Assembly: GCA_017469785.1 (NCBI GenBank)
Contig: JAFUFU010000019.1
Span: forward strand, 30,716 to 94,715
Reading direction: 5' to 3'
Source: Treponema sp.
GTDB taxonomy: Bacteria > Spirochaetota > Spirochaetia > Treponematales > Treponemataceae
DNA length: 64,000 nucleotides
Both the position numbers and the translations under genes were made by a program. The stretch's first letter is position 1, and each line of letters starts with the position of its first letter. Under the pieces are notes generated by a model. The model saw nothing but the letters and a program-made list of their open reading frames with translations, was not told the DNA's origin and ran no database searches. Shown piece by piece: positions 20,710-32,891 of this stretch.

Positions 20710-22281
20710 TTAAAACTTCCAGCCAACCATTCCCTTGCCCTCACTTGAAAAGACCACGCCTATTTTGAAGAGTTTTTTACCTGCCACAGCAAATCTTTCG
20801 GCATAGCCGTTTGCGTCAATTTGAGACAGAGCCTCAGTCGCAACTTCCTCAAAATTCCTGCCCCTATCCATCTTCAATTCAAAAACAAATACGCTGTCTT
20901 TCGTTGCGACGACGACATCGCTCCGCCCTGCCACAGACTGAAGCTCACTAACCACCCTGTAACCTGAGAGACGGAAAATCAAGTGCGTTACCGACTCGTA
21001 GTAGTTTTCGCACATTTCCTTTTTGACTACAGTTGGAAGATCAGCGATTGCGGCCTTAATAATAGATAGAACTTTATCGATGTCGTTGCTCCTAAGGGCC
21101 CGTTTTATGTTCGTGATTTCCATGCCCAAATCATCACAGGGGGCGGAAAGAAATTTTCCCAAAAGGACTTCCAGAAAACCTGCCTCAACTTCGCGGTTTG
21201 GAAAATCCAGCGTGTAAAGATTTTCTTCCATATCAAAGCCTTTGATTGTCAGATAACCGCTCTGATAAATGACAGGAAGCATATTTTTGCTGTCGGGGTC
21301 GTAATTCTTAATCTGATTTTCGTTTGCTTCTCGTCCGTTCACAAGATTGGAAAGCTCAACAGGCTCATTCTCCAGTGTTTTTACAAGAAAAGACGGAGTT
21401 CCGCTCTCAAACCAGTAGGAGCCGAATTTTTTCTCATAAAAACATTTTAGCAGGCAGAAGGGATTATAGACCCCCTCGCTCCCGTAGGAAAAATGATAGC
21501 CGTCGTACATCTGTGCCAATTTTTCTTTTGTTTCTGAAAGCGACAGCTTGAATTTTTTTGACAGTTCCTCAATCTCAGGCGCAAAATATTTATCAAGTTC
21601 GGATTCGGAAATTCCGCACAAGGAAGAAAAATCCTCTGCCATACTGATGTCGTTGAGCTGGTTCAGTCCGCTGAAAATGTTCACATGGCTCACTTTCGTG
21701 ATTCCCGTGATGAAGAGAAATCGAATATAGGCATCGCAATCTTTGAGCGGGCTGTAGAAATTCCGTAATTCCAGACGGTTTTTCTCCTCATCTTCTGTAT
21801 AAAGGGCATCCAAAATCGGCTTATCGTATTCATCGATTAGAATTACAACCGGCTTGCCTGTTATATTGTAAATTGAGGTGATTATAGAATTTAATCGTTC
21901 GCCCGCATCGCTGAAAGATTTTTTGATTTGAAACCTTTCCTCAAAACCTGAGACAAGCGAATCCAGCCGCTCCTTCAGCCGCTCATTCGTATCGTAAGAG
22001 CCAGCCCCGAAACTGATTTTGAGCACAGGATATTCAGTCCAGTCTTTTTCCTTGCTTTCGATTTCAAGACCGGCAAACAGCTCTTTTTTGCCAAGAAAAA
22101 AAGCCTCAAAAGTCGAAAGCAAAAGGCTCTTCCCGAAACGGCGGGGACGGCTTAAAAAGAATGGCGTTGAAAGACTCGCAAGCTCATAGACGAAGTTTGT
22201 CTTGTCAACATAGAGGTAGTTTCCTCTGCGGAGTTTCTCAAAATCCTGAATGCCAATGGGCAGTTTTCGGCTCAAATCCAT
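20710..22281 (-). CDS. AAA-ATPase-like / PD-(D/E)XK nuclease-like protein
   Basis: 523 residues from ATG 22281. The N-terminal AAA-ATPase-like domain opens with LPIGIQDFEKLRRGNYLYVDKT and carries the modified P-loop SRPRRFGKSLLLSTF and the Walker B-like VVILIDEYDKPI. The C-terminal part has the PD-(D/E)XK-like GRSDVVVATKDSVFVFELKMD. This two-part family is abundant, multi-copy and variable in gut anaerobes, Treponema included; its biological role is not settled, though mobile-element and defence links have been suggested. TACAAT lies eight bases before the ATG and no ribosome-binding site is seen. It stands between the first leader-element copy and yggS. Confidence 0.8.
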   Translation of the reverse strand: MDLSRKLPIGIQDFEKLRRGNYLYVDKTNFVYELASLSTPFFLSRPRRFGKSLLLSTFEAFFLGKKELFAGLEIESKEKDWTEYPVLKISFGAGSYDTNERLKERLDSLVSGFEERFQIKKSFSDAGERLNSIITSIYNITGKPVVILIDEYDKPILDALYTEDEEKNRLELRNFYSPLKDCDAYIRFLFITGITKVSHVNIFSGLNQLNDISMAEDFSSLCGISESELDKYFAPEIEELSKKFKLSLSETKEKLAQMYDGYHFSYGSEGVYNPFCLLKCFYEKKFGSYWFESGTPSFLVKTLENEPVELSNLVNGREANENQIKNYDPDSKNMLPVIYQSGYLTIKGFDMEENLYTLDFPNREVEAGFLEVLLGKFLSAPCDDLGMEITNIKRALRSNDIDKVLSIIKAAIADLPTVVKKEMCENYYESVTHLIFRLSGYRVVSELQSVAGRSDVVVATKDSVFVFELKMDRGRNFEEVATEALSQIDANGYAERFAVAGKKLFKIGVVFSSEGKGMVGWKF

Positions 22282-22356
22282 AATTAATGATTGTAGCATA
22301 CAATTCGCAAATTGTCATTTGAGCGTGAAAGAGAAAAAGTCACAATGAATTTGCGC

Positions 22357-23058
22357 TTATCCCCGCGAGCCGAAAATAGCCGTGCCGATTCTGACAATGG
22401 TAGCCCCCTCTTCAATGGCAATCTCAAAGTCTCCGCTCATGCCCATGGAAAGCTCCGAAAGGTCAAGGCTGGGGTATTTTTTCTGGAAAGAATCCCTGAG
22501 ATTACGCAAGGTAACGAAGGATTTTCGGATTAAGCTTTTGTCTTCGGTGAAAGGAGCCATGGTCATAAAGCCTCTGGGCGTGACATGAGGGAATTTCTGC
22601 CCGGCACAGAGCTTTATCGCATTTTCCAAGTCTTCCACACTGGTGAAGCCCGCCTTTGAGTCTTCGCCGGTGTGGACTTCAAAAAGGATTTCGATATTTT
22701 TGTTGATTTTGGCAGCCTGTTTTTCAATTTCTTCTATTAACTCAATACGATCGGCACTTTCGATACAGCTGGCAATCCTGACGGCTTCCTTAACCTTGTT
22801 GCGCTGCAAGCTCCCGATGATGTGAAGATTCGGCTCCAAGCCCCGGGCACGGATTTCGTCAAACTTCGCGGCCGCCTCCTGAACGCGGTTTTCGCCAAAG
22901 AGGAGCTGCCCCGCCTCTAAAGCCTCAATCACGCTCTCCGCCGGATGAAATTTGCTGACGGCGACGAGCTTGACGGAATTTTCATCACGGAAAGCCCGCT
23001 TTTCTACGGCACGGATTTTATTTAAAACTGATTCTAGATTTTCTGCGATTTGTGACAT
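22357..23058 (-). CDS. YggS-family PLP-binding protein
   Basis: 233 residues of the YggS/PROSC family, which binds pyridoxal phosphate and helps vitamin B6 and amino-acid balance. Key elements: LVAVSKFHP with the PLP lysine, LLFGENRVQE, HIIGSLQRNK and the end SMGMSGDFEIAIEEGATIVRIGTAIFG that binds the phosphate. No ribosome-binding site of the usual spacing: the promoter TTGAAA-18-TAAAAT ends six bases before the ATG, so the message may be leaderless. Divergent from the cassette region. Confidence 0.93.
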   Translation of the reverse strand: MSQIAENLESVLNKIRAVEKRAFRDENSVKLVAVSKFHPAESVIEALEAGQLLFGENRVQEAAAKFDEIRARGLEPNLHIIGSLQRNKVKEAVRIASCIESADRIELIEEIEKQAAKINKNIEILFEVHTGEDSKAGFTSVEDLENAIKLCAGQKFPHVTPRGFMTMAPFTEDKSLIRKSFVTLRNLRDSFQKKYPSLDLSELSMGMSGDFEIAIEEGATIVRIGTAIFGSRG

Positions 23059-23094: not shown

Positions 23095-23376
23095 GCCGTT
23101 CTATATTGTCCACATCTTTTTGGGAAAACAAACGAGGAAAGTCAACTGCGAGTTGACCGCAAGCCAGCGATTTTCTCATACAGTTATGATTTGTGTCTTA
23201 CTACATCAATTTTTTCTTCGCCTCGCTTTTCGGGGTGACGGCATTTTCTCTGCTCATGGGAATGATGGTGTGGCTGTTGGGGTGAAAATTGGTTATAAAG
23301 TGGCTGATAATTTTTATGGCTTTACCTCTATCAAGATAAAATTATGACAAATACCATAATTTGAGGTACACTACAA
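23095..23376. other. Gene-free stretch with a possible coding remnant
   Basis: No supported gene. On the plus strand around 23200-23278 the frame reads FFFASLFGVTAFSLLMGMMVWLLG then stops, which looks like the end of a membrane protein, but no start or upstream part is present. A frame with GYKVADNFYGFTSIKI follows. Both are too short to call. Confidence 0.3.
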
Positions 23377-23460
23377 GCATACCATATCCGCCCCTAGATT
23401 ACACTGACACATTTTGTTGTATAAATCTATTCCTGCGGATATGGTGAAATTATGTTATGT
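23377..23460 (+). repeat. attC-like site, left edge of cassette cluster (diverged)
   Basis: GCATACC (23377-23383, one base off the GCATAAC of the site at 26547) and a GTTATGT core (23454-23460) enclose an 11-base inverted repeat ACCATATCCGC / GCGGATATGGT. The sequence right after the core, GGACGCCCGC, matches what follows the core at 26606 (TGACGCCCGC). The R'' box is degenerate, so this is a weaker call than the two other sites. Confidence 0.45.
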
Positions 23461-23496
23461 GGACGCCCGCTACTTCGGGCGCTGTTAGGAAACGAA

Positions 23497-24009
23497 ATGA
23501 AATCAATTCAATTAAAAAATGATGATTACAAAGAATATGTAAACATTCTTCGGCATGCTTGTAGAGGGATTATAATAAATAATGGAAATGTTTTGTTGTG
23601 TTATGAATCAAATGAAGACAAGTACATTATTCCGGGTGGTGGACAAGAAGAAAATGAAACTCTTGAACAATGTTGTGAAAGGGAACTTTTAGAAGAAACA
23701 GGGATAATTGTAAAAACAAATCCTTGTTATCTCGAAATTGAAGAATTGTTCTCAGATTGGAGACATATTAATCATTATTTTGTTTGTGAAATCATTGAAG
23801 ATACGGGGACATTACATCTTACAGAAAATGAAAAACAGGCTGGTTATAAGACAGTTTGGATTCCATTAGATAAGGCTATAGAAATATTTGGAAACTATGA
23901 GACTTTTCATAAAACCAACATTGCAGATTATGGATTGTACAGAAGAGAATTTTTTGCATTAAACGAACTAAAAAAAATCTTACAAGATAAAAAATCAGGC
24001 CAAGCCTGA
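23497..24009 (+). CDS. Nudix hydrolase
   Basis: 170 residues. The Nudix box is complete: GGGQEENETLEQCCERELLEETGI fits Gx5Ex7REUxEExGU, so it should hydrolyse a nucleoside diphosphate linked to another moiety; the substrate cannot be told. The start ATG 23497 lies six bases after GTTAGGA (23484-23490), which gives an AGGA ribosome-binding site and also resembles an integron recombination core. The gene is AT-rich compared with the housekeeping genes. A hairpin with T-run overlaps its stop. First gene of the cassette cluster. Confidence 0.9.
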   Translation: MKSIQLKNDDYKEYVNILRHACRGIIINNGNVLLCYESNEDKYIIPGGGQEENETLEQCCERELLEETGIIVKTNPCYLEIEELFSDWRHINHYFVCEIIEDTGTLHLTENEKQAGYKTVWIPLDKAIEIFGNYETFHKTNIADYGLYRREFFALNELKKILQDKKSGQA

Positions 24010-24015
24010 TTTTTA
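23991..24015 (+). terminator. Intrinsic terminator of the Nudix gene
   Basis: AAAATCAGGC-CAA-GCCTGATTTTT: ten perfect pairs, triloop, T-run. The stop codon lies inside the right arm. Confidence 0.75.
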
Positions 24016-24043
24016 GTACGGCGGGTCAAGCCCTCCCTTTTAT

Positions 24044-24073
24044 TTGATAAAAGCGACAGCGTGTAATTATAAT
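24044..24073 (+). promoter_or_regulatory. Promoter of the brnT fragment/brnA pair
   Basis: TTGATA (24044-24049), 18 bases, TATAAT (24068-24073); ATG 24080 follows six bases later, so the mRNA is predicted to be leaderless. Confidence 0.65.
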
Positions 24074-24079
24074 ATAATT

Positions 24080-24229
24080 ATGGATGAAGACAGATTTATC
24101 ATGCTTGGATTTAGTTCCGAGTTACATATGCTGGTTGTCTGCCATTGTTACAGAGAAAATGACAGAATTAGAATTATTTCGGCCCGAAGAGCGAATACAC
24201 TTGAAGCCGCACAATATGGAGGAAAATAA
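24080..24229 (+). pseudogene. BrnT toxin, C-terminal half only
   Basis: 49 residues starting MDEDRFIMLGFSS and containing VCHCYRENDRIRIISARRA, which is the C-terminal half of BrnT-type RelE-fold RNase toxins (usual form: DEERFxxLGxS...RIISARxA). The N-terminal half (about 45 residues, with WDxxKxxxNxxKHG) is missing. A strong promoter stands directly in front of the remaining part, so it may still be expressed together with brnA. Either a pseudogene or a rebuilt small protein; the toxin activity should be lost because N-terminal catalytic residues are absent. Confidence 0.75.
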
Positions 24230-24230
24230 C

Positions 24231-24443
24231 ATGAGAGACAATTACGATTTTTCAAAAGGAATCAAAAATCCTTATGCAGACAGACTCAAAAAACAGATTA
24301 CAATTCGCCTTGACGACCAGGTAATTGAATATTTTAAGAATATGGCAGAAGAAACAGGCATGCCTTATCAGAATATAATCAATTATTATCTGCTGGACTG
24401 TGTAAAAGAAAAGAAGCATCTGGAAGTTGCGTTTAGTAAGTAA
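24231..24443 (+). CDS. brnA: BrnA-family antitoxin
   Basis: 70 residues. YDFSKGIKNPYADRLKKQITIRLDDQVIEYFKNMAEETGMPYQNIINYYL is the ribbon-helix-helix BrnA pattern: an N-terminal strand ITIRL and two helices. BrnA binds BrnT and represses its own promoter. GGAGGA lies eight bases before the ATG, one base after the stop of the BrnT fragment. It appears complete although its toxin partner is truncated, so it may persist as an orphan repressor or antitoxin. Confidence 0.85.
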   Translation: MRDNYDFSKGIKNPYADRLKKQITIRLDDQVIEYFKNMAEETGMPYQNIINYYLLDCVKEKKHLEVAFSK

Positions 24444-24447
24444 AATC

Positions 24448-24580
24448 ACATAACATGGTTTTCAAAACCGATAAAAACTTTGTCACAAAAGTTGCTTTCC
24501 GTGGCTTTACGCCACTGCAACTTTTGCGCCAATTTTGCCTGCGGCAAAACCGGTTTTACGGTTTAAAACGCTAGTTATAC
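24448..24580 (+). repeat. attC recombination site (133 bases)
   Basis: R'' ACATAAC (24448-24454) and R' GTTATAC (24574-24580) are complementary at ATAAC/GTTAT. Inside, an L''/L' pair (GGTTTTCAAAACCG against CGGTTT..AAAACG) and a long central stem-loop AAAAGTTGC / GCAACTTTT with an inner GTGG/CCAC pairing form the variable terminal structure. The layout matches the folded bottom strand used by integron integrases. It follows brnA directly, as the end of a cassette should. Confidence 0.75.
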
Positions 24581-24616
24581 GCACAGCCCACTGGGCTGGT
24601 GAAAAAGGAAGTAAAA

Positions 24617-25873
24617 ATGAAATCGGTAAGAAAAAAGGCGTTGATTGCAATCATAATTGAGTTTTTTGTCTTTTCATATGTGGGCTTTTCACTAGTGCTC
24701 ATGCTGTTTCATGCTGGAATTTTGGCATTTCCTGTAATTGCATTCATGTGGACTTTTTGGGGATTCAATGTATTAACATTTTTTTTAGGAATCGAAATAA
24801 AATTGCGCTATAAGCTTTCTTTTGCGGTCCTAAACTTTCTTGTGATATCGCTACTCCTTGCTTTTCTGATAAATTCTTCTGAGTCTATCAAAAACAATAC
24901 GGTTCATATTGTTGCCATAGTGCTTTCTGCCATTGTTGGGATTTTGTATTTGCTTGTATCAATACTTTTTGTGAAACATTATTGGAAGCCGGCGAAAAAT
25001 GAAGTTTTACGTCTTTTTGGAAAAATTCCCCCCGAGCCGACACTTGATGACTGCAAAACAAAATATCCAGTATTGCTTGTTCACGGAACGGGATTCCGTG
25101 ACAGAAAACTTTTCAATTATTGGGGGCTTATCCCCGAGATTCTTAAAGAGCATGGTGCCGCCATATTCTACAGTAAGCATGACGCCTGGGCGAATATTGA
25201 AGATGCGGCAAACCAAATTGTGATTGCTCTGAAAGAGGCTCTTGAAAAAACAGGCTCTGAAAAAGTTAATGTAATAGCCCATTCTAAAGGCGGAATAGAT
25301 GTACGGTATGCAATAGCAAAACTTGGAGTTTCAGATAAAATAGCTTCTCTTACGATGATAAGCTCTCCAAATCATGGTTTAAAAACGATGGATTCGCTCT
25401 ACTCAATTTTTGGGAAAGGATTTTTTAAATTCTGTGCTTTTTTCGTAAATATCTGGTTTAGGATTCTTGGAGATAAAAAGCCAGATTTCTTTGAGACAAG
25501 CCAGCAGTTCAGGGCTTCTTTTATGGAAAATTTCAATAAGGAAATTACTGACTCCCCTGCCATTATGTATCAGTCATTTGCTGGAAAAATGAAAAACCCG
25601 TTCAGTGATATTTTTATGTGGTTCTTGAATCTTATAATCAGATTTTCTGACGGAGCGAACGACGGGCTTGTATCGGTGGACTCTGCGAAATGGGGAAAAT
25701 TCCGTGGTACAATTGAAGGCCGGGGGTTTTTCGGGATTTCTCATCCGCATGAAGTTGACGGTTATCGCACAAATCCTAGATTAAAAGAAAGTGAAAGTCT
25801 CCCAAGTGGTTCAAAAACTATTAGAGATTTTTATATAAGTTTAGTTCGTGAATTAAAAAAAATTGGACTATGA
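24617..25873 (+). CDS. Membrane-anchored lipase/esterase (alpha/beta hydrolase)
   Basis: 418 residues from ATG 24617 (AAGGA upstream; an in-frame GTG at 24599 lies closer to the attC site). Four hydrophobic helices fill the first 110 residues (for example SLVLMLFHAGILAFPVIAFMW). The rest is an alpha/beta hydrolase: YPVLLVHGTGF oxyanion strand, nucleophile elbow IAHSKGGIDVR, the SSPNHG element and a late ISHPHEVDG with the likely catalytic His. It resembles bacterial triacylglycerol lipases (class I/EstA-like), where AHSKGG replaces GHSxGG. A lipase on an integron-type cassette is in line with the mixed metabolic cargo of chromosomal arrays. Confidence 0.85.
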   Translation: MKSVRKKALIAIIIEFFVFSYVGFSLVLMLFHAGILAFPVIAFMWTFWGFNVLTFFLGIEIKLRYKLSFAVLNFLVISLLLAFLINSSESIKNNTVHIVAIVLSAIVGILYLLVSILFVKHYWKPAKNEVLRLFGKIPPEPTLDDCKTKYPVLLVHGTGFRDRKLFNYWGLIPEILKEHGAAIFYSKHDAWANIEDAANQIVIALKEALEKTGSEKVNVIAHSKGGIDVRYAIAKLGVSDKIASLTMISSPNHGLKTMDSLYSIFGKGFFKFCAFFVNIWFRILGDKKPDFFETSQQFRASFMENFNKEITDSPAIMYQSFAGKMKNPFSDIFMWFLNLIIRFSDGANDGLVSVDSAKWGKFRGTIEGRGFFGISHPHEVDGYRTNPRLKESESLPSGSKTIRDFYISLVRELKKIGL

Positions 25874-25980
25874 CAGACATGTCAAAAAAATATTTACAGC
25901 CGATAAAAACTAAGGCATCAAAAGTTGCTCTTCGTACCTTTGCGACAACTCAGGATAATTTTAATTGACAAAAGTTAAAT
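25874..25980 (+). repeat. attC-like site, degenerate
   Basis: Ends in GTTAAAT (25974-25980, fits GTTRRRY). It shares CCGATAAAAACT and CAAAAGTTGCT with the site at 24448-24580 and keeps the AGTTG/CAACT inner pairing, but no clean R'' box is left. Position between the lipase stop and the RelB start supports a former cassette junction. Confidence 0.5.
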
Positions 25981-26012
25981 ATAGACTTATCGTGTAGTAA
26001 AAGGTGGTAAAT

Positions 26013-26270
26013 ATGACTACAATTTCTGCAAAAATCGACAATTCTGATAAAAATCTTTTTGAATCAATTTGTGATTCGATGGGCCTGAGTATTTCTTCTG
26101 CCATTAGTGCCTTTGTAAAGGCCACAATCAGGGAAAACGGAATGCCATTTGCATTGAAAGCGATGGATGACCCGTATATTTATTCCGAAGCAAACATGAA
26201 ATATCTTCGCGAAAGTATAAATCAGCTTGAAAGCGGTAACGGAAAAGTTCATGAACTTCGGGAGATTTAA
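26013..26270 (+). CDS. RelB/DinJ-family antitoxin
   Basis: 85 residues from ATG 26013 with AAAGGTGG upstream. Ribbon-helix-helix pattern: TTISAKIDNSDKNLFESICDSMGLSISSAISAFVKATIRENGMPF is typical of RelB/DinJ. The tail (ANMKYLRESINQLESGNGKVHEL) is the toxin-wrapping part. The toxin gene follows three bases later, so this is a complete type II module with autoregulation expected through the RHH domain. It lies between attC-like sites and may stabilise the cassette array. Confidence 0.9.
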   Translation: MTTISAKIDNSDKNLFESICDSMGLSISSAISAFVKATIRENGMPFALKAMDDPYIYSEANMKYLRESINQLESGNGKVHELREI

Positions 26271-26273
26271 GGA

Positions 26274-26543
26274 ATGATAAAAGTTTGGTCTGATTTGGCA
26301 TGGAACGATTATTGCGATTTTTTTGACAAACACCAGCAAAAACAAATAAAGATGATTCACGAGCTTTTAAAAGACATTGAACGAAATGGAGTTGATAAAG
26401 GTCGCGGTCAACCAGAGCAGTTAAAACATGAGCTTTCAGAATACTACAGCCGAAGAATTGATAAAATGAACCGTCTAATCTACAAAGTTATTGATGAAAA
26501 TAAATTATATATTGCTCAATGCGGTACACATTATCAAGAATAG
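26274..26543 (+). CDS. yoeB: YoeB/Txe-family mRNA interferase toxin
   Basis: 89 residues. VWSDLAWNDYCDF at the N-terminus, PEQLKHEL with the catalytic Glu48, SRRIDKMNRLIY with the Arg residues, and the C-terminal THYQE with His86/Tyr87 reproduce the YoeB ribosome-dependent RNase site. Full length, all key residues kept, so it should be active. Paired with the RelB/DinJ antitoxin just upstream; RelB/YoeB combinations of this kind are common. An attC site starts four bases after its stop. Confidence 0.92.
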   Translation: MIKVWSDLAWNDYCDFFDKHQQKQIKMIHELLKDIERNGVDKGRGQPEQLKHELSEYYSRRIDKMNRLIYKVIDENKLYIAQCGTHYQE

Positions 26544-26546
26544 AAA

Positions 26547-26612
26547 GCATAACAAGAAGTTCAAAGCCGACAAACCGGTCAAGCCAGTTTGCGATTTAAC
26601 TCATTGTTAGGT
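26547..26612 (+). repeat. attC recombination site (66 bases)
   Basis: R'' GCATAAC (26547-26553) and R' GTTAGGT (26606-26612) with complementary TAACAA/TTGTTA ends. L'' AAGTTCAAAGCC pairs with L' GATTTAACT with a bulge, and CAAAC/GTTTG closes the terminal loop. The word order TAACAA..TTCAAAGCCGAC closely resembles the aadA-type attC of mobile integrons. The clearest attC of the window. Confidence 0.8.
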
Positions 26613-26648
26613 TGACGCCCGCACTGTGCCACTTTCGGTGAAAGTAAA
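26613..26648 (+). other. Spacer after the last attC
   Basis: Begins TGACGCCCGC, similar to the bases after the left-edge site at 23461; ends at the start of leader element B. No gene. Confidence 0.4.
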
Positions 26649-26757
26649 ATCTCCAACATTTTTCTCTTTAAAAATTTGGGTAGTGTACACTACCCAAAGG
26701 ACTTGAAAGAGTCCTTTGGGCGAAGTCTTGCTTCGCTCGACTTCGCCCAAAAAATCA
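26649..26757 (+). repeat. Three-hairpin leader element, copy B
   Basis: Inverted partner of 20543-20651. Order on the plus strand: TCTCCAACATTTTTCTC, a 22-base palindrome with core TAGTGTACACTA, a six-pair hairpin AGGACT/AGTCCT, and a 13-pair stem TTTGGGCGAAGTC / GACTTCGCCCAAA, then 22 bases to the next ribosome-binding site. No U-run follows the last stem in the gene's direction, so it is not a simple terminator. Confidence 0.75.
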
Positions 26758-26780
26758 AAATTAAAATCTAGGAGGATTTT

Positions 26781-27332
26781 ATGAAACGCTTATCTAAACT
26801 CGCTGCTATTCTTGCAGCACTTGTATTGACTTGTGCATTCTTTGGATGCTCAAACGGGAATTCATCTGATGATGAATCCAACGACCAGTCAATAGCTCTT
26901 TCTGACGGAGACTATACATTAACAATAACGCAAACTTCTGATGGAATGGTCGAAGAATATGATATCAAAGCAACTGCAAGCAATGAAAGTTGGACTTTTA
27001 AGTCTGGTTCAAAAACGCAGACTGTTGACCTTACAAAACAAATGACCACAGACGAACTTGCAGCTTTTAATGAAAAGGACACTGATGCTAAAAAGGCAAT
27101 AGCTAAAGAAAATATGGGTTTTCCTGATGATGCAGAAATCTCCTTTACTGACACTGAAGTGATTGTAAAAGCAAATCTTCCTGATGCAAAGCTTGCAGAA
27201 ATGCAGGAGGGTTATAAATTATCATCAATTCCAGACGATGCCAAAATCGAAACAATTACAGATAAAACTGAGTATAAAATAACTATGTCTAAAAACGGTA
27301 AGACAATTGTATCTTATATCAAAAAAGAATGA
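26781..27332 (+). CDS. Lipoprotein, unknown
   Basis: 183 residues. Signal peptide MKRLSKLAAILAALVLTCAFFGC with lipobox AFFGC, then an acidic Ser/Asn spacer (SNGNSSDDESNDQ) and a beta-rich domain with DGDYTLTITQTSDG, EYDIKATASNESWTF and YKITMSKNGKTIVSYI. AGGAGG stands seven bases before the ATG. It shares its leader element and signal-peptide style, though not its mature sequence, with the small lipoprotein at 20257. Surface or periplasmic; function unknown. Confidence 0.8.
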   Translation: MKRLSKLAAILAALVLTCAFFGCSNGNSSDDESNDQSIALSDGDYTLTITQTSDGMVEEYDIKATASNESWTFKSGSKTQTVDLTKQMTTDELAAFNEKDTDAKKAIAKENMGFPDDAEISFTDTEVIVKANLPDAKLAEMQEGYKLSSIPDDAKIETITDKTEYKITMSKNGKTIVSYIKKE

Positions 27333-27336
27333 AAAG

Positions 27337-27365
27337 TTGACAAAAATGATATAGATATGTATATT
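27337..27365 (+). promoter_or_regulatory. Strong promoter of the antisense RNA
   Basis: TTGACA (27337-27342), exactly 17 bases, TATATT (27360-27365). It points at a region with no plus-strand gene but a minus-strand toxin. Confidence 0.75.
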
Positions 27366-27371
27366 TAAACA

Positions 27372-27461
27372 AGCGGGGACGCAAAGCAAATGAGCGACCG
27401 CCTCCGTTGAGTTTTTACTAAAAACCCGCCTAGAGTTGGAAGCTGAGGGCGGGCTTTTTTA
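27372..27461 (+). ncRNA. Antitoxin RNA of a type I toxin-antitoxin locus
   Basis: Predicted RNA of about 90 bases from the promoter above to the terminator CCCGCC / GGCGGG plus T6. It converges on the toxin gene and overlaps the 3' end of the toxin mRNA through the shared terminator, the arrangement known from txpA/RatA of Bacillus subtilis. The RNA starts AAGCGGGGACGCAAAGC. Expression is not proven; the promoter, terminator and partner gene support it. Confidence 0.65.
27425..27460. terminator. Bidirectional terminator between toxin and antisense RNA
   Basis: CCCGCC (27425-27430) pairs with GGCGGG (27448-27453); T6 follows on the plus strand and GGCGGGTTTTT reads on the minus strand. Confidence 0.75.
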
Positions 27462-27473
27462 TGCTCTTAAGTC

Positions 27474-27554
27474 CTATTTGATTAGGAAGGTGAGCAGGTC
27501 TATAACAATTGCGATGATTGCAATGACAAGCATTGCTTTTTCGTATTTTGTCAC
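27474..27554 (-). CDS. Small hydrophobic type I toxin (holin-like toxin family)
   Basis: 26 residues, GTG start, AAGGAGG six bases upstream. The peptide begins MTKYEKAMLV, continues as a single hydrophobic helix rich in Ile/Val/Ala and ends DLLTFLIK. This short N-terminal MxxYEAxxLM pattern plus one membrane helix and a charged end is that of the holin-like toxins (TxpA/Hol_Tox type) widespread in Firmicutes. A shared terminator and a convergent strong promoter complete the type I layout. Too short for usual gene calling. Membrane insertion and toxicity are inferred from the family. Confidence 0.75.
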   Translation of the reverse strand: MTKYEKAMLVIAIIAIVIDLLTFLIK

Positions 27555-27649
27555 AGACGGCCTCCTTCATTCATGCGAAATCAGAGGCAAGCCGCCGCAA
27601 TTTACTAAGCATCCCCTATGGAGTGTATAGTACATGAAATGTATAAAAT

Positions 27650-27925
27650 CTACAAGGTGTTGCAGAAAAGAGGAATCAGTTTGTTTTGGGCAAGTTTTCG
27701 GAAAGTCTCTGCCATTGTCGCCGGAGTTTCAGTGTCATAATCAAGAAGAATATGATTTCCGATATCAACGAAAATCTGAACAGCCCTCTGCAAGTTCAGA
27801 ATTATAATATCCTGCTTGTCTATGTTTTTTTCCAAATCTTCAAGGCTCAAAATCCCCTGACTTTTGACACGGTGGACGCAACGGATGAGAGCCGCAATCT
27901 TCGCTTCAAGGACTTCTTTATCCAT
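27650..27925 (-). pseudogene. HepT-like toxin (DUF86), 3'-truncated
   Basis: 91 residues. MDKEVLEAKIAALIRCVHRVK...LSLEDLEKN...LQRAVQIFVDIGNHILLDYDTETP and RKLAQNKLIP follow the HEPN/HepT pattern, but the protein ends at FCNTL before the family's catalytic RNxLVHxY motif. It normally spans about 140 residues, so roughly the last third is lost; the type I toxin locus begins just beyond. Good ribosome-binding site (AAAGAGG). Without the RX4-6H motif no RNase activity is expected. Confidence 0.75.
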
Positions 27926-28320
27926 TTATAAACCTCTTTATTTTTTGCCTGTTCATGTATTCAATCGTTGGAAGAAAATCTTCTTTAAAACAAAGAGCTT
28001 TTGTCAGATAAGGGACAAAAATGCTTTTTGAAATCTTGATTTTTATGCCTGTCGTCATAATCTGATAAAGAAAAAATGCCTTCTGCCTGAGACAAATCCG
28101 CAAGGTCGATTTCCCGCTTGCAAAGAAGAGCTAAATCTCACTGGATTTTTGAAAGTTCCTCATAGCCGAGGGAATTCTTAGAATGAAGGGCAATGTCGAT
28201 GTCACTGTGGGAATTAAAAGTGCCTTTAGCAAAGGAGCCGAACAATAAGACGGTATCTATTTCATCTTTTTGAGAAAAATAATTCTGGATTTTTTGCTTT
28301 ACCTGCTCCGCTTCATTCAT
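27918..28320 (-). pseudogene. MntA-like nucleotidyltransferase antitoxin, disrupted
   Basis: Starts at ATG 28320. The minimal nucleotidyltransferase signature GSFAKGTFNSHSDIDIAL (GSx10DxD) is intact, but the frame meets TGA at 28138 (after ELSKIQ). Reading on gives LALLCKREIDLADLSQAE, typical of the family, and then a frameshift at a T-run near 28070 continues as FFLYQIMTTGIKI...NRQKIKRF. So a stop and a frameshift split the gene. It pairs with the HepT remnant downstream (overlap 8 bases); both partners of this MNT/HepT module are broken. Confidence 0.7.
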
Positions 28321-28398
28321 TGATTTATTATAGCATAAAAAATCAATCAGATAAATATTTTGAGAATCTCTAAAACTCACCTGCAAGGAACGACAGAT

Positions 28399-30926: not shown

Positions 30927-32891
30927 CTACTTAAAAATCTTCGCGATTTCTTTCTTGTAAATCTTGCTGATTTTGTGGCGCATGAGTTCCTGCTTGGCGT
31001 TGATTTCCTTGTTCAGCTCGAAGCTCTGTTTGAGGATGGCGAATTTGAAGATTCGCTCGCAGGTTCTAAAGCCGGTCTTTGCGTTGTCCAGGGCGTCGAT
31101 TTCACTTCTGAAGAGATTCTGGATTTCGCTTGTATCAAGAAGGCTTTCGTAAGTGTCGTAGACGATGTTGTTCTCCTCAGCGTAAGTGAGGACATTGCTC
31201 TGGTCAGGAACGATGAGGGCGCCGACATATTTTTGGTCTTGGCCGACGACTACGGTTCTCTCCACATAGGGGCTGGCGTTGATTGCCTTTTCGATAACCG
31301 CAGGCTCGATGTTCTCTCCGCCCAGAAGAACGATGGTATCCTTGGCTCGTCCCACGATTTTAAGCTCATTATCGCAGGAAATCATTCCCAAGTCTCCGGT
31401 GTTAAGCCAGCCGTCCTTGTCGATTACGGCTTCGGTCAAATCCGGGCGTTTGTAATAGCCTTTCATGATCTGCCGGCCTTTTACGAGAATCAGGCCCCGC
31501 TTTCCAGGCTTCAAGGGCTTTCCGTCTACAATCTGGCCGTCTTTTTCGGCGACGATTTTAAGGTCAAAGCTGGGGAAAATCCATCCTACGTTGTTGTTTC
31601 GAGGCCGTTTTGAGTTGCGCACTGAAATTACGGGCGCAGTTTCGGTCATACCGTAACCTTCAAGAAGACGGAAGCCGATTGCGTTGAAAAAATCCTCTGT
31701 CTCTGGCTGCAAGGCACCGCCGCCGGAAATTGCCGCACGGAACTTTCCGCCGAATTTCTGCCTGATTCTTGAGAAAACCAGCTGCTCGCCCAAAAAATGA
31801 GACGGCCACAAAAGCACGAAGGGGAAAAATCCCGTTACATAATCGATGATTCTCGGATACCAGTGATAGCGGCACTTCAAGCCCAAGAATCGCGCCTTAG
31901 ACTTGTAATACCATTTTCCGAAAAGAACTGAATATTTGAAAACAAGGCGGTTGAGGGCGCTCTGCTTTTTGATTTCACGGAACAAGCCCTGGGCAACAGA
32001 TTCCCACAAGCGGGGAACGGCATTCATCCACTGGGGCTGAACCAGCTGCATATCCTGAATCATTACGGAAGCAACCGGCTTAGAGTAGGCAAAGCCTCCC
32101 TCAAGGGTGACGACCATATAAAGGAAGGCTCTCTCAAAACTGTGCCAGATTGGAAGGACGGTGAGCCACAAGTCCCCGCTCTGCATGAGACCAAGGACGC
32201 TGCGGCAGACTTCGCACTGAGCCAGATAATTGTCATGGGTAAGCTGAACGCCCTTTGGCAGGCCCGTGGTTCCAGAAGTGAAGATAATCGTGGCCACATC
32301 GCTGCGATCGATAGCTTCCATGCCCTTCTCTATTTCCTGCCATTCCTCTTTCGTGATGGCAGTTCCTTCTGATTCAAGCATTGAATAATAGATGACTTCG
32401 ATTCCCTTTGATTTCGCGTCTTCAATGGTGGCTTCATCGGCGTGGTCATAGAGAATTGCCTTTTTGAGGGTGGGTACTTCCCCTATATTCTCCAGAACTT
32501 TCTGGAGCTGACGAGCATTCTCGAAAAAAGAAACCTCAGCCTCCACATAATTCAGGATAAAGCGCATTTCAACGCCCATGGAGTCACAGCCACGGGGAAC
32601 ATCGATTGCACCCAAAGCCAGCAGGGCAAAATCAGTGATAAGCCATTCCCGGCGGTTGTCGCTCATAAGCCCCACACGGTCGCCTTTTTTGATTCCGATT
32701 TTTTTGAGCGCAGAGGCAAGCTCGATTACATGCTGATAGACCTGAGAATAGCTGTAGCGGACAAACATTCCGCTCTTGTTTTTGACCGCCTGCAAGGTAA
32801 GGTGGGGGCACTTAGCCACTTTCTGCTTAAAAAGAAGGGCAAGGTTATTTCCAAGATTTTTCTCAAATTTCGACAAGTCCATAGCAGGCAT
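30927..32891 (-). CDS. Long-chain acyl-CoA synthetase (AMP-forming)
   Basis: 654 residues of the FadD/ACSL type, activating fatty acids to acyl-CoA through acyl-AMP. The AMP-binding signature TIIFTSGTTGLPKGVQLTH, the motif LEGYGMTETAPVISV, DGWLNTGDLG and the hinge GRAKDTIVLLGGENIEP are intact. The length and the RYSYSQVYQHV / KKGDRVGLMSDNRREW N-terminus fit the ACSL group common in Treponema, which relies on host fatty acids. A start at ATG 32891 follows TGAGG; a second ATG lies three codons on. The promoter TTGACA-16-CATAAT is upstream. Confidence 0.93.
   Translation of the reverse strand: MPAMDLSKFEKNLGNNLALLFKQKVAKCPHLTLQAVKNKSGMFVRYSYSQVYQHVIELASALKKIGIKKGDRVGLMSDNRREWLITDFALLALGAIDVPRGCDSMGVEMRFILNYVEAEVSFFENARQLQKVLENIGEVPTLKKAILYDHADEATIEDAKSKGIEVIYYSMLESEGTAITKEEWQEIEKGMEAIDRSDVATIIFTSGTTGLPKGVQLTHDNYLAQCEVCRSVLGLMQSGDLWLTVLPIWHSFERAFLYMVVTLEGGFAYSKPVASVMIQDMQLVQPQWMNAVPRLWESVAQGLFREIKKQSALNRLVFKYSVLFGKWYYKSKARFLGLKCRYHWYPRIIDYVTGFFPFVLLWPSHFLGEQLVFSRIRQKFGGKFRAAISGGGALQPETEDFFNAIGFRLLEGYGMTETAPVISVRNSKRPRNNNVGWIFPSFDLKIVAEKDGQIVDGKPLKPGKRGLILVKGRQIMKGYYKRPDLTEAVIDKDGWLNTGDLGMISCDNELKIVGRAKDTIVLLGGENIEPAVIEKAINASPYVERTVVVGQDQKYVGALIVPDQSNVLTYAEENNIVYDTYESLLDTSEIQNLFRSEIDALDNAKTGFRTCERIFKFAILKQSFELNKEINAKQELMRHKISKIYKKEIAKIFK

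Follow-up and report, generated by a model that had tools for sequence, protein, structure and literature searches.

We analyzed a cluster of integron gene cassettes in a 64,000-nucleotide stretch of Treponema sp. DNA (the window, positions 30716-94715 of contig C23, in a 97.12% complete assembly of 3.24 Mb and 63 contigs). Very probably, this cluster is a stump left by a chromosomal integron of Treponema. Between yggS and fadD it retains an attI recombination site, two cassettes and the start of a third, and no integrase gene (intI) was found in the assembly. Cassette 1 is constituted of a Nudix hydrolase gene, a truncated BrnT gene and a BrnA gene, and cassette 2 of a lipase-like gene fused with a RelB-YoeB pair. 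As attI is retained, we consider the locus as a platform stump, i.e., an integrase-less integron, and not as a plain cluster of attC sites lacking integron-integrases (CALIN). A preliminary description had proposed a CALIN-like group of orphan cassettes in Treponema. The cassettes are indeed orphan, no integrase being found, and at least two attC without intI were detected by Treponema-trained models; however, attI is present, so that the locus does not consist of attC sites only. Throughout the text, G-numbers designate genomes of relatives, L-numbers individual loci and C-numbers contigs of the window's own genome.

Recombination sites and search for the integrase

A finder written by hand demanded strict pairing and overlooked both attC of the window; it was replaced by covariance models, one for short attC (R2, 47 rows) and one for long attC (R3, 23 rows), both built from relatives only and free of own-genome rows. 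These models matched a long attC of 133 bp at 24448-24580 (+ strand; R3, 156.6 bits, E 1.3e-37; also R2, 40.3 bits) and a short attC of 66 bp at 26547-26612 (+ strand; R2, 70.6 bits, E 6e-16), with coordinates identical to the base to those first proposed. Both sites show R and L boxes. Two diverged attC had also been proposed, at 23377-23460 and 25874-25980, and neither R2 nor R3 reported them at E ≤ 1. The former is in fact the attI site, whereas the latter is attC-derived but restricted to the 5′ half of a long attC (25893-25962, + strand, by pairwise alignment and blastn), the 3′ half and the R′ box being lost; blastn matched this half to the long attC of other arrays over about 50-69 bp at 74-82% identity. 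All recombination sites of the cluster are on the + strand, in agreement with the common orientation described earlier. Three words had been listed as shared by the sites: CCGATAAAAACT and CAAAAGTTGCT are part of the long attC and of the broken copy of this site, while GACGCCCGC, placed "after the core," does sit immediately past the R′ box but is the 5′ arm of a hairpin found at cassette starts, and the hairpin at 24574 has a different stem type.

Of 200 genomes of the genus, 62 (the own genome among them) showed DNA matches to the long attC, many of them partial and with at most four places scored per genome. Full-length matches in this survey were up to 97% identical, and three further copies are located on own contig C38. 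The window site is 91-95% identical to full-length sites of G199 and is therefore of the Treponema succinifaciens type. We infer the identity of G199 from its intI coordinates only, because its intI match (716338-717285) falls inside those given for T. succinifaciens intI in the part of PMC3607928 covered here.

The attI site (23335-23461, + strand) was recognized by a profile of eight sites from relatives, own genome left out (E 3e-12). Seven of these sites lie behind an intI above cut-off, that of G025 about 0.7 kb behind its intI, and the G018 site lies behind an intI fragment. The match spans 127 bp and ends at the crossover GTT, and by blastn the stretch 23365-23500 matches sequence that follows intI in several relatives. 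With 43.8 bits, the window site scores above attI beside intact intI in L028 (40.2), L023 (31.3), L018 (29.7) and L025 (26.7). Both attC and attI of the window are of Treponema type. A possible cassette promoter Pc (ATGACA-17-TACACT, 23344-23372, + strand, 9/12 consensus positions) is found at the expected place.

Two further attI without intI were detected in the own genome, on C46 (E 5.7e-10) and C34 (E 8.9e-8), and on C57 the match is limited to the first 43 bases of attI. Other genomes, e.g., G089, G075, and G063, likewise have attI copies for which the 700 bp upstream gave no intI. Besides, the array of own contig C38 opens after an ATPase gene with an apparent duplicated attI 3′ end (L077 7223-7268), and in G081 two adjacent attI each lie behind a broken intI (L105 3500-6900), pointing to a local duplication of the platform.

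No intI was found: TIGR02249 gave nothing above cut-off over the whole own assembly (best 71 bits vs. a cut-off of 265), and sub-cut-off matches were also obtained in the 14 control genomes. The IntI protein of G199 gave only weak partial matches in the own genome, all in other tyrosine recombinases, presumably of Xer or phage type, and the array regions examined in the own genome showed no trace of IntI (best E 0.04). The initial remark that no IntI is visible thus extends to the whole assembly. Within the genus, an IntI match at E ≤ 1e-30 was obtained for 43 of 118 genomes (34 above cut-off), and among 28 chosen attC-bearing genomes, 17 have an IntI match (12 above cut-off) and 11 have none. 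Several of the relatives' matches cover just a C-terminal piece or are interrupted by stops, so that intI seems to be lost commonly in Treponema. In G018, the last 139 intI codons remain beside attI and a hairpin (L084 17455-18050), a snapshot of integrase loss.

Several points weigh against a platform stump. The window attI scores under the eight profile-building sites (63-112 bits) and its match begins only at profile position 10; Pc is a weak consensus match, 16 such sites being counted in the region vs. 12.2 ± 3.5 in shuffles; no intI trace is left at this locus, and attI and the cassettes may have arrived without intI rather than next to one formerly present at this spot. Also, an intI elsewhere in the genome is conceivable, because the assembly is incomplete and fragmented. 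A gene in an unassembled part, still shuffling the array in trans, would be in line with this incompleteness and with the location of intI near contig ends in many relatives; yet all three own attI have contiguous upstream DNA without intI, and the array of the window is small and in part degraded, which makes this scenario quite improbable. Finally, a plain CALIN, in which IntI placed the cassettes at a secondary site where attI was never present, would agree with the lack of intI in cis and is presumably what IntegronFinder would report, as this software ignores attI outside class 1 (PMC9024848, in the part covered), but it is very unlikely given the 127-bp attI profile match ending at the crossover.

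Under the favored reading, a stump of a chromosomal platform, a Treponema-type IntI would have joined the cassettes by attC × attI recombination, and intI would then have been lost, as apparently happened repeatedly in the genus. The array would now be static unless an IntI acts in trans, and is probably frozen. The lipase and RelB-YoeB cassettes would have fused when the attC separating them lost its 3′ half. Expression would probably rely on the promoter at attI and on promoters of the toxin-antitoxin cassettes, and the short hairpin at the cassette starts would most likely function within the mRNA leader. Arrays without an integrase are usually classified as attC clusters. The presence of attI in such arrays, three in one genome and several in relatives, suggests that platforms multiply and repeatedly lose intI in Treponema, and attI can therefore help to trace these losses.

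A hairpin at cassette starts

Three nucleotides past the R′ box, a hairpin was observed with a covarying stem, a C-ACT-G loop and a bulged A. The window has three of them, all on the + strand. Hairpin 2 (24574-24602) is canonical, with 36.4 bits for the hairpin model (R1) and a fold of -13.3 kcal/mol (z -3.07). Hairpin 1 (23454-23486) has a variant loop, 25.5 bits (E 4e-4) and a fold of -11.9 kcal/mol with a z-score of only -1.09. Hairpin 3 (26606-26635; 28.6 bits) has mismatched arms, its expected stem is absent from the fold, and it resembles a hybrid of two stem types. Hairpins 2 and 3 are rows of the alignment A1 on which R1 was trained, and hairpin 1 is not.

Rows of A1 were chosen by an A at the tenth base and by a loop word, not by pairing; 10 of the 116 rows were dropped by a further word rule, which left 106, including two from the window and five from C38. 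In this alignment 92.8% of 740 cells pair, vs. 31-48% when the arms are slid by 1-3 columns, and two-sided changes occur in six of seven pairs (136 cells). The covariation score, the number of paired cells and the number of cells with two-sided change were each reached by none of 500 shuffles, while the two other measures stayed within the shuffles (pairs with two-sided change, 319/500; further pair types, 72/500). The five column pairs that rank highest by mutual information all belong to the hairpin, including the outer pair across the bulged A.

A search of 20 loci by pairing alone, with five paired bases required, gave 133 hairpins on the array strand, of which about a dozen lie inside long attC; the opposite strand gave 5 and shuffled copies gave 6-16. 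The loop CACTG was found in 95 of these 133 hairpins and in none on the other strand, the bulged A in 115, and an optional bulged purine in 62. When sites were chosen by the L′/R′ words alone (299 candidates, false ones included), all five pairs were formed in 125 of them vs. 7 with shuffled tails. No Rfam family corresponds to the hairpin: at the gathering threshold the whole window gave only a 5S rRNA, and at E ≤ 1 the stretch 23300-27700 gave only a microRNA family far below cut-off (26688-26727).

The position of the hairpin is constant. In the same 20 loci, which also supplied training rows (73 of the 143 R1 matches are rows of A1), 111 of the 133 attC matches (R2, E ≤ 1e-4) have a hairpin (R1, E ≤ 0.01) exactly at the R′ GTT; 22 have none, and none has a hairpin on the opposite strand. 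In addition, 32 hairpins have no upstream R2 match, several of them following attI or long attC. Outside the training loci, a hairpin follows all four attC (R2, E ≤ 1e-4) of own contigs C46 and C57 and 11 of 14 attC in the named loci (L192 left out, being on the same contig as L042). In the own genome, R1 matched 18 sites over five contigs at E ≤ 0.1. At E ≤ 1e-4, 51 of 392 Spirochaetota genomes were positive under strict filters, with at most 18 candidates scored per genome; all belong to a single family, the Treponemataceae, 34 of them to the window's genus (own genome included) and 17 to ten other genera. The hairpin is not universal, as G120 and G137 have intI and no R1 match at this threshold. 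Since spirochaetes outside the family may be without integrons, this survey does not show that the hairpin is absent from other integrons. The integrase region of a Gemmatirosa plasmid, taken as a control outside the family, was uninformative: it gave no R1 match below E 0.85, and a crude finder gave only two doubtful attC there.

We consider it about evenly balanced whether many Treponemataceae cassettes carry this covarying hairpin at their 5′ end (3 nt past R′, with a bulged A and a C-ACT-G triloop) as a device making the cassette a plug-in expression unit, either by shielding the ribosome binding site (RBS) from the upstream attC or by marking the cassette for IntI. Among 99 cassettes of 250-1800 bp delimited by consecutive hairpins, the longest open reading frame (ORF) is forward in 97 and reverse in none, two having no ORF of 70 aa; cassettes with a reverse gene, which were sought for an RNA-vs.-DNA comparison, were thus lacking. 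The first possible start codon lies at a median of 19 nt past the hairpin (14-22 nt in 46 of 97 cassettes, more than 200 nt in 15). Because the start codon is usually close and the genes are forward, the hairpin is, judging from these sequences, most likely an element of the mRNA leader. In the wobble strand test, 21 G-T cells were counted vs. 15 A-C cells, which favors neither RNA nor DNA. A folding test of RBS insulation gave no significant difference (p 0.24 for spread, 0.88 for accessibility) in a small sample of 46 sites with a hairpin and 11 without (from 54 of 111 and 21 of 22 submitted).

It is also possible, though distinctly less likely, that the hairpin works at the level of single-stranded DNA, where it would serve IntI as an accessory to the folded attC. 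The fixed 3-nt spacing from the R′ box and the bulged base beside the recombination site are consistent with such a role, whereas the forward genes and the short distance to their starts argue for RNA. Hairpin-templated repair, copying one arm onto the other and producing covariation without selection for function, appears unlikely. Hybrid-looking hairpins, with arms of two stem types joined at the CACTG loop, were seen by eye in the window (26606-26635), L077 (5159-5188), L042 (3966-3995) and L076 (13128-13157), and speak for this process; but templated repair would tend to eliminate bulges, and both the bulged A and the optional purine are kept at the frequencies given above.

A supposed likeness to Vibrio VCR, in which a similar hairpin would follow R′, was dropped, as the primer and motif words in the part of PMC1382264 covered read as the L′/R′ end of the attC itself. 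We found no description of a cassette 5′ hairpin in the open-licence literature surveyed, which was represented largely by titles, beginnings of abstracts and passages; the passages of PMC8876359, PMC4670013, PMC4909258, PMC6557892, PMC1382264, and PMC8352920 make no mention of it. If the interpretation as an expression unit is true, integrons of this family would have, in addition to attI and attC, a third structural element in the hairpin. If functional, the hairpin could account for the expression of genes drawn from many sources behind whatever neighbor they have. It also provides a simple marker of cassette starts.

Cassette cargo and chromosomal setting

The genes listed in the preliminary description were recovered with Pfam, except that the lipase rests on sub-cut-off alpha/beta-hydrolase matches. 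Cassette 1 contains the Nudix gene (23488-24009, PF00293, E 1e-14), the C-terminal part of a BrnT toxin gene (24080-24229, positions 39-77 of 77 of PF04365) and the BrnA antitoxin gene (24231-24443, PF14384, E 3e-7), all on the + strand, as are the genes of cassettes 2 and 3. Relative to L078, the beginning of BrnT lacks about 0.13 kb, and relatives have longer copies of this gene. The Nudix-BrnTA set is also a cassette of G199 (94 and 93% DNA identity), closed there by a short attC and in the window by the long one. Cassette 2 comprises the lipase/esterase-like gene (24617-25873, PF02089/PF00561 just under cut-off), the relB antitoxin gene (26013-26270, PF04221, E 1.5e-10) and the yoeB toxin gene (26274-26543, PF06769, E 4e-22); these form a single cassette, because the intervening attC survives only as its 5′ half. 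Ahead of relB, a promoter-like sequence TTGACA-17-TATCGT (25965-25993, + strand) was noted as a consensus match only. The leader of a further cassette (26640-26850, + strand) matches inside array stretches of G001, G042, and G190, and no attC of its own was found. A small protein encoded at 26781-27332 (no Pfam family; lipoprotein-like start judged by eye) probably belongs to this third cassette, and its DNA has an 87% match in G199 at 519 kb, outside the G199 intI array.

The lipase protein is 86.5% identical in the G095 array, and the cassette DNA is 80-94% identical in arrays L190, L191, L192 (the G095 contig) and L193, each of which starts with a hairpin match. A lipase relative was present in 19 named loci, all from Treponema except two assigned only to Spirochaetaceae or Spirochaetales; T. 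zioleckii is the single isolate genome, the others being metagenome-assembled or uncultured and several rumen-labeled. Ten of these loci (L195-L200, L202, L204-L206) gave no R1 (E ≤ 0.01) and no R2 (E ≤ 0.001) match, among them T. zioleckii L199, whose lipase homolog lies in a stretch without hairpin or attC match. On this sequence evidence, the lipase gene also occurs outside detectable arrays, which qualifies the interpretation as an orphan cassette.

The flanks of the insert are yggS on the left (22357-23058, - strand, Pfam Ala_racemase_N) and a fadD-like gene for an AMP-binding enzyme on the right (30927-32891, - strand, PF00501). The gap between them is 7868 bp in the window vs. 8-269 bp in G133, G022, G084, G051, G125, and G086, and neither attI (E ≤ 0.01) nor the hairpin (R1, E ≤ 0.05) was matched at these six loci. 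In G038 and G020, yggS was seen without fadD in 12 kb, and the most similar sequence, G023, ends inside yggS. As yggS and fadD adjoin in all six relatives showing both, the insert appears to be specific to the lineage of the window among the relatives examined. The same genes in a conserved order without attC, which would have spoken against an integron origin, were thus not encountered: the relatives with conserved yggS-fadD are devoid of the whole insert.

Other sequences in and around the insert were also noted. Between yggS and attI, 54 bp (23131-23184) have 92-96% identical copies in G149 and G047. The stretch 27332-27671 is a dispersed repeat with copies of about 73-94% identity in many genomes of the genus, including G199 at 841 kb, and on own contig C63; it has no Rfam match, and its 64-aa ORF has no Pfam match. 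The HepT-like and nucleotidyltransferase genes at 27650-28386, probably a toxin-antitoxin pair, have 97% identical DNA in G022 and G149 and likely arrived recently in the insert. An AAA-ATPase/PD-(D/E)XK gene between ileS and yggS (20710-22299), absent at this place in G125, G051, and G084, looks like a second insertion nearby.

Comparison with known systems

The T. succinifaciens integron, for which PMC3607928 gives attC of 132 bp in the part covered, is similar to the window in its attC of 132-133 bp, its homologous attI, its Nudix-BrnTA cassette and its hairpins; it differs by the presence of intI, by a long array and by the short attC that closes this cassette. T. phagedenis, according to the same portion of PMC3607928, also has attC and cassettes without intI, but its locus is syntenic with other Treponema integrons, and retention of attI is not reported in that portion. 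As defined in the part of PMC9024848 covered, the CALIN of IntegronFinder share with the window at least two attC and the lack of a nearby intI, whereas the window has an attI, a site which that software does not search for outside class 1. Finally, the attC hairpins and structured leaders known from class 1 integrons (PMC8876359, passages covered) resemble the Treponema hairpin as structured RNA between cassettes, and affect translation in class 1; unlike them, the Treponema hairpin is a separate element located after R′ and common to many cassettes with different genes.

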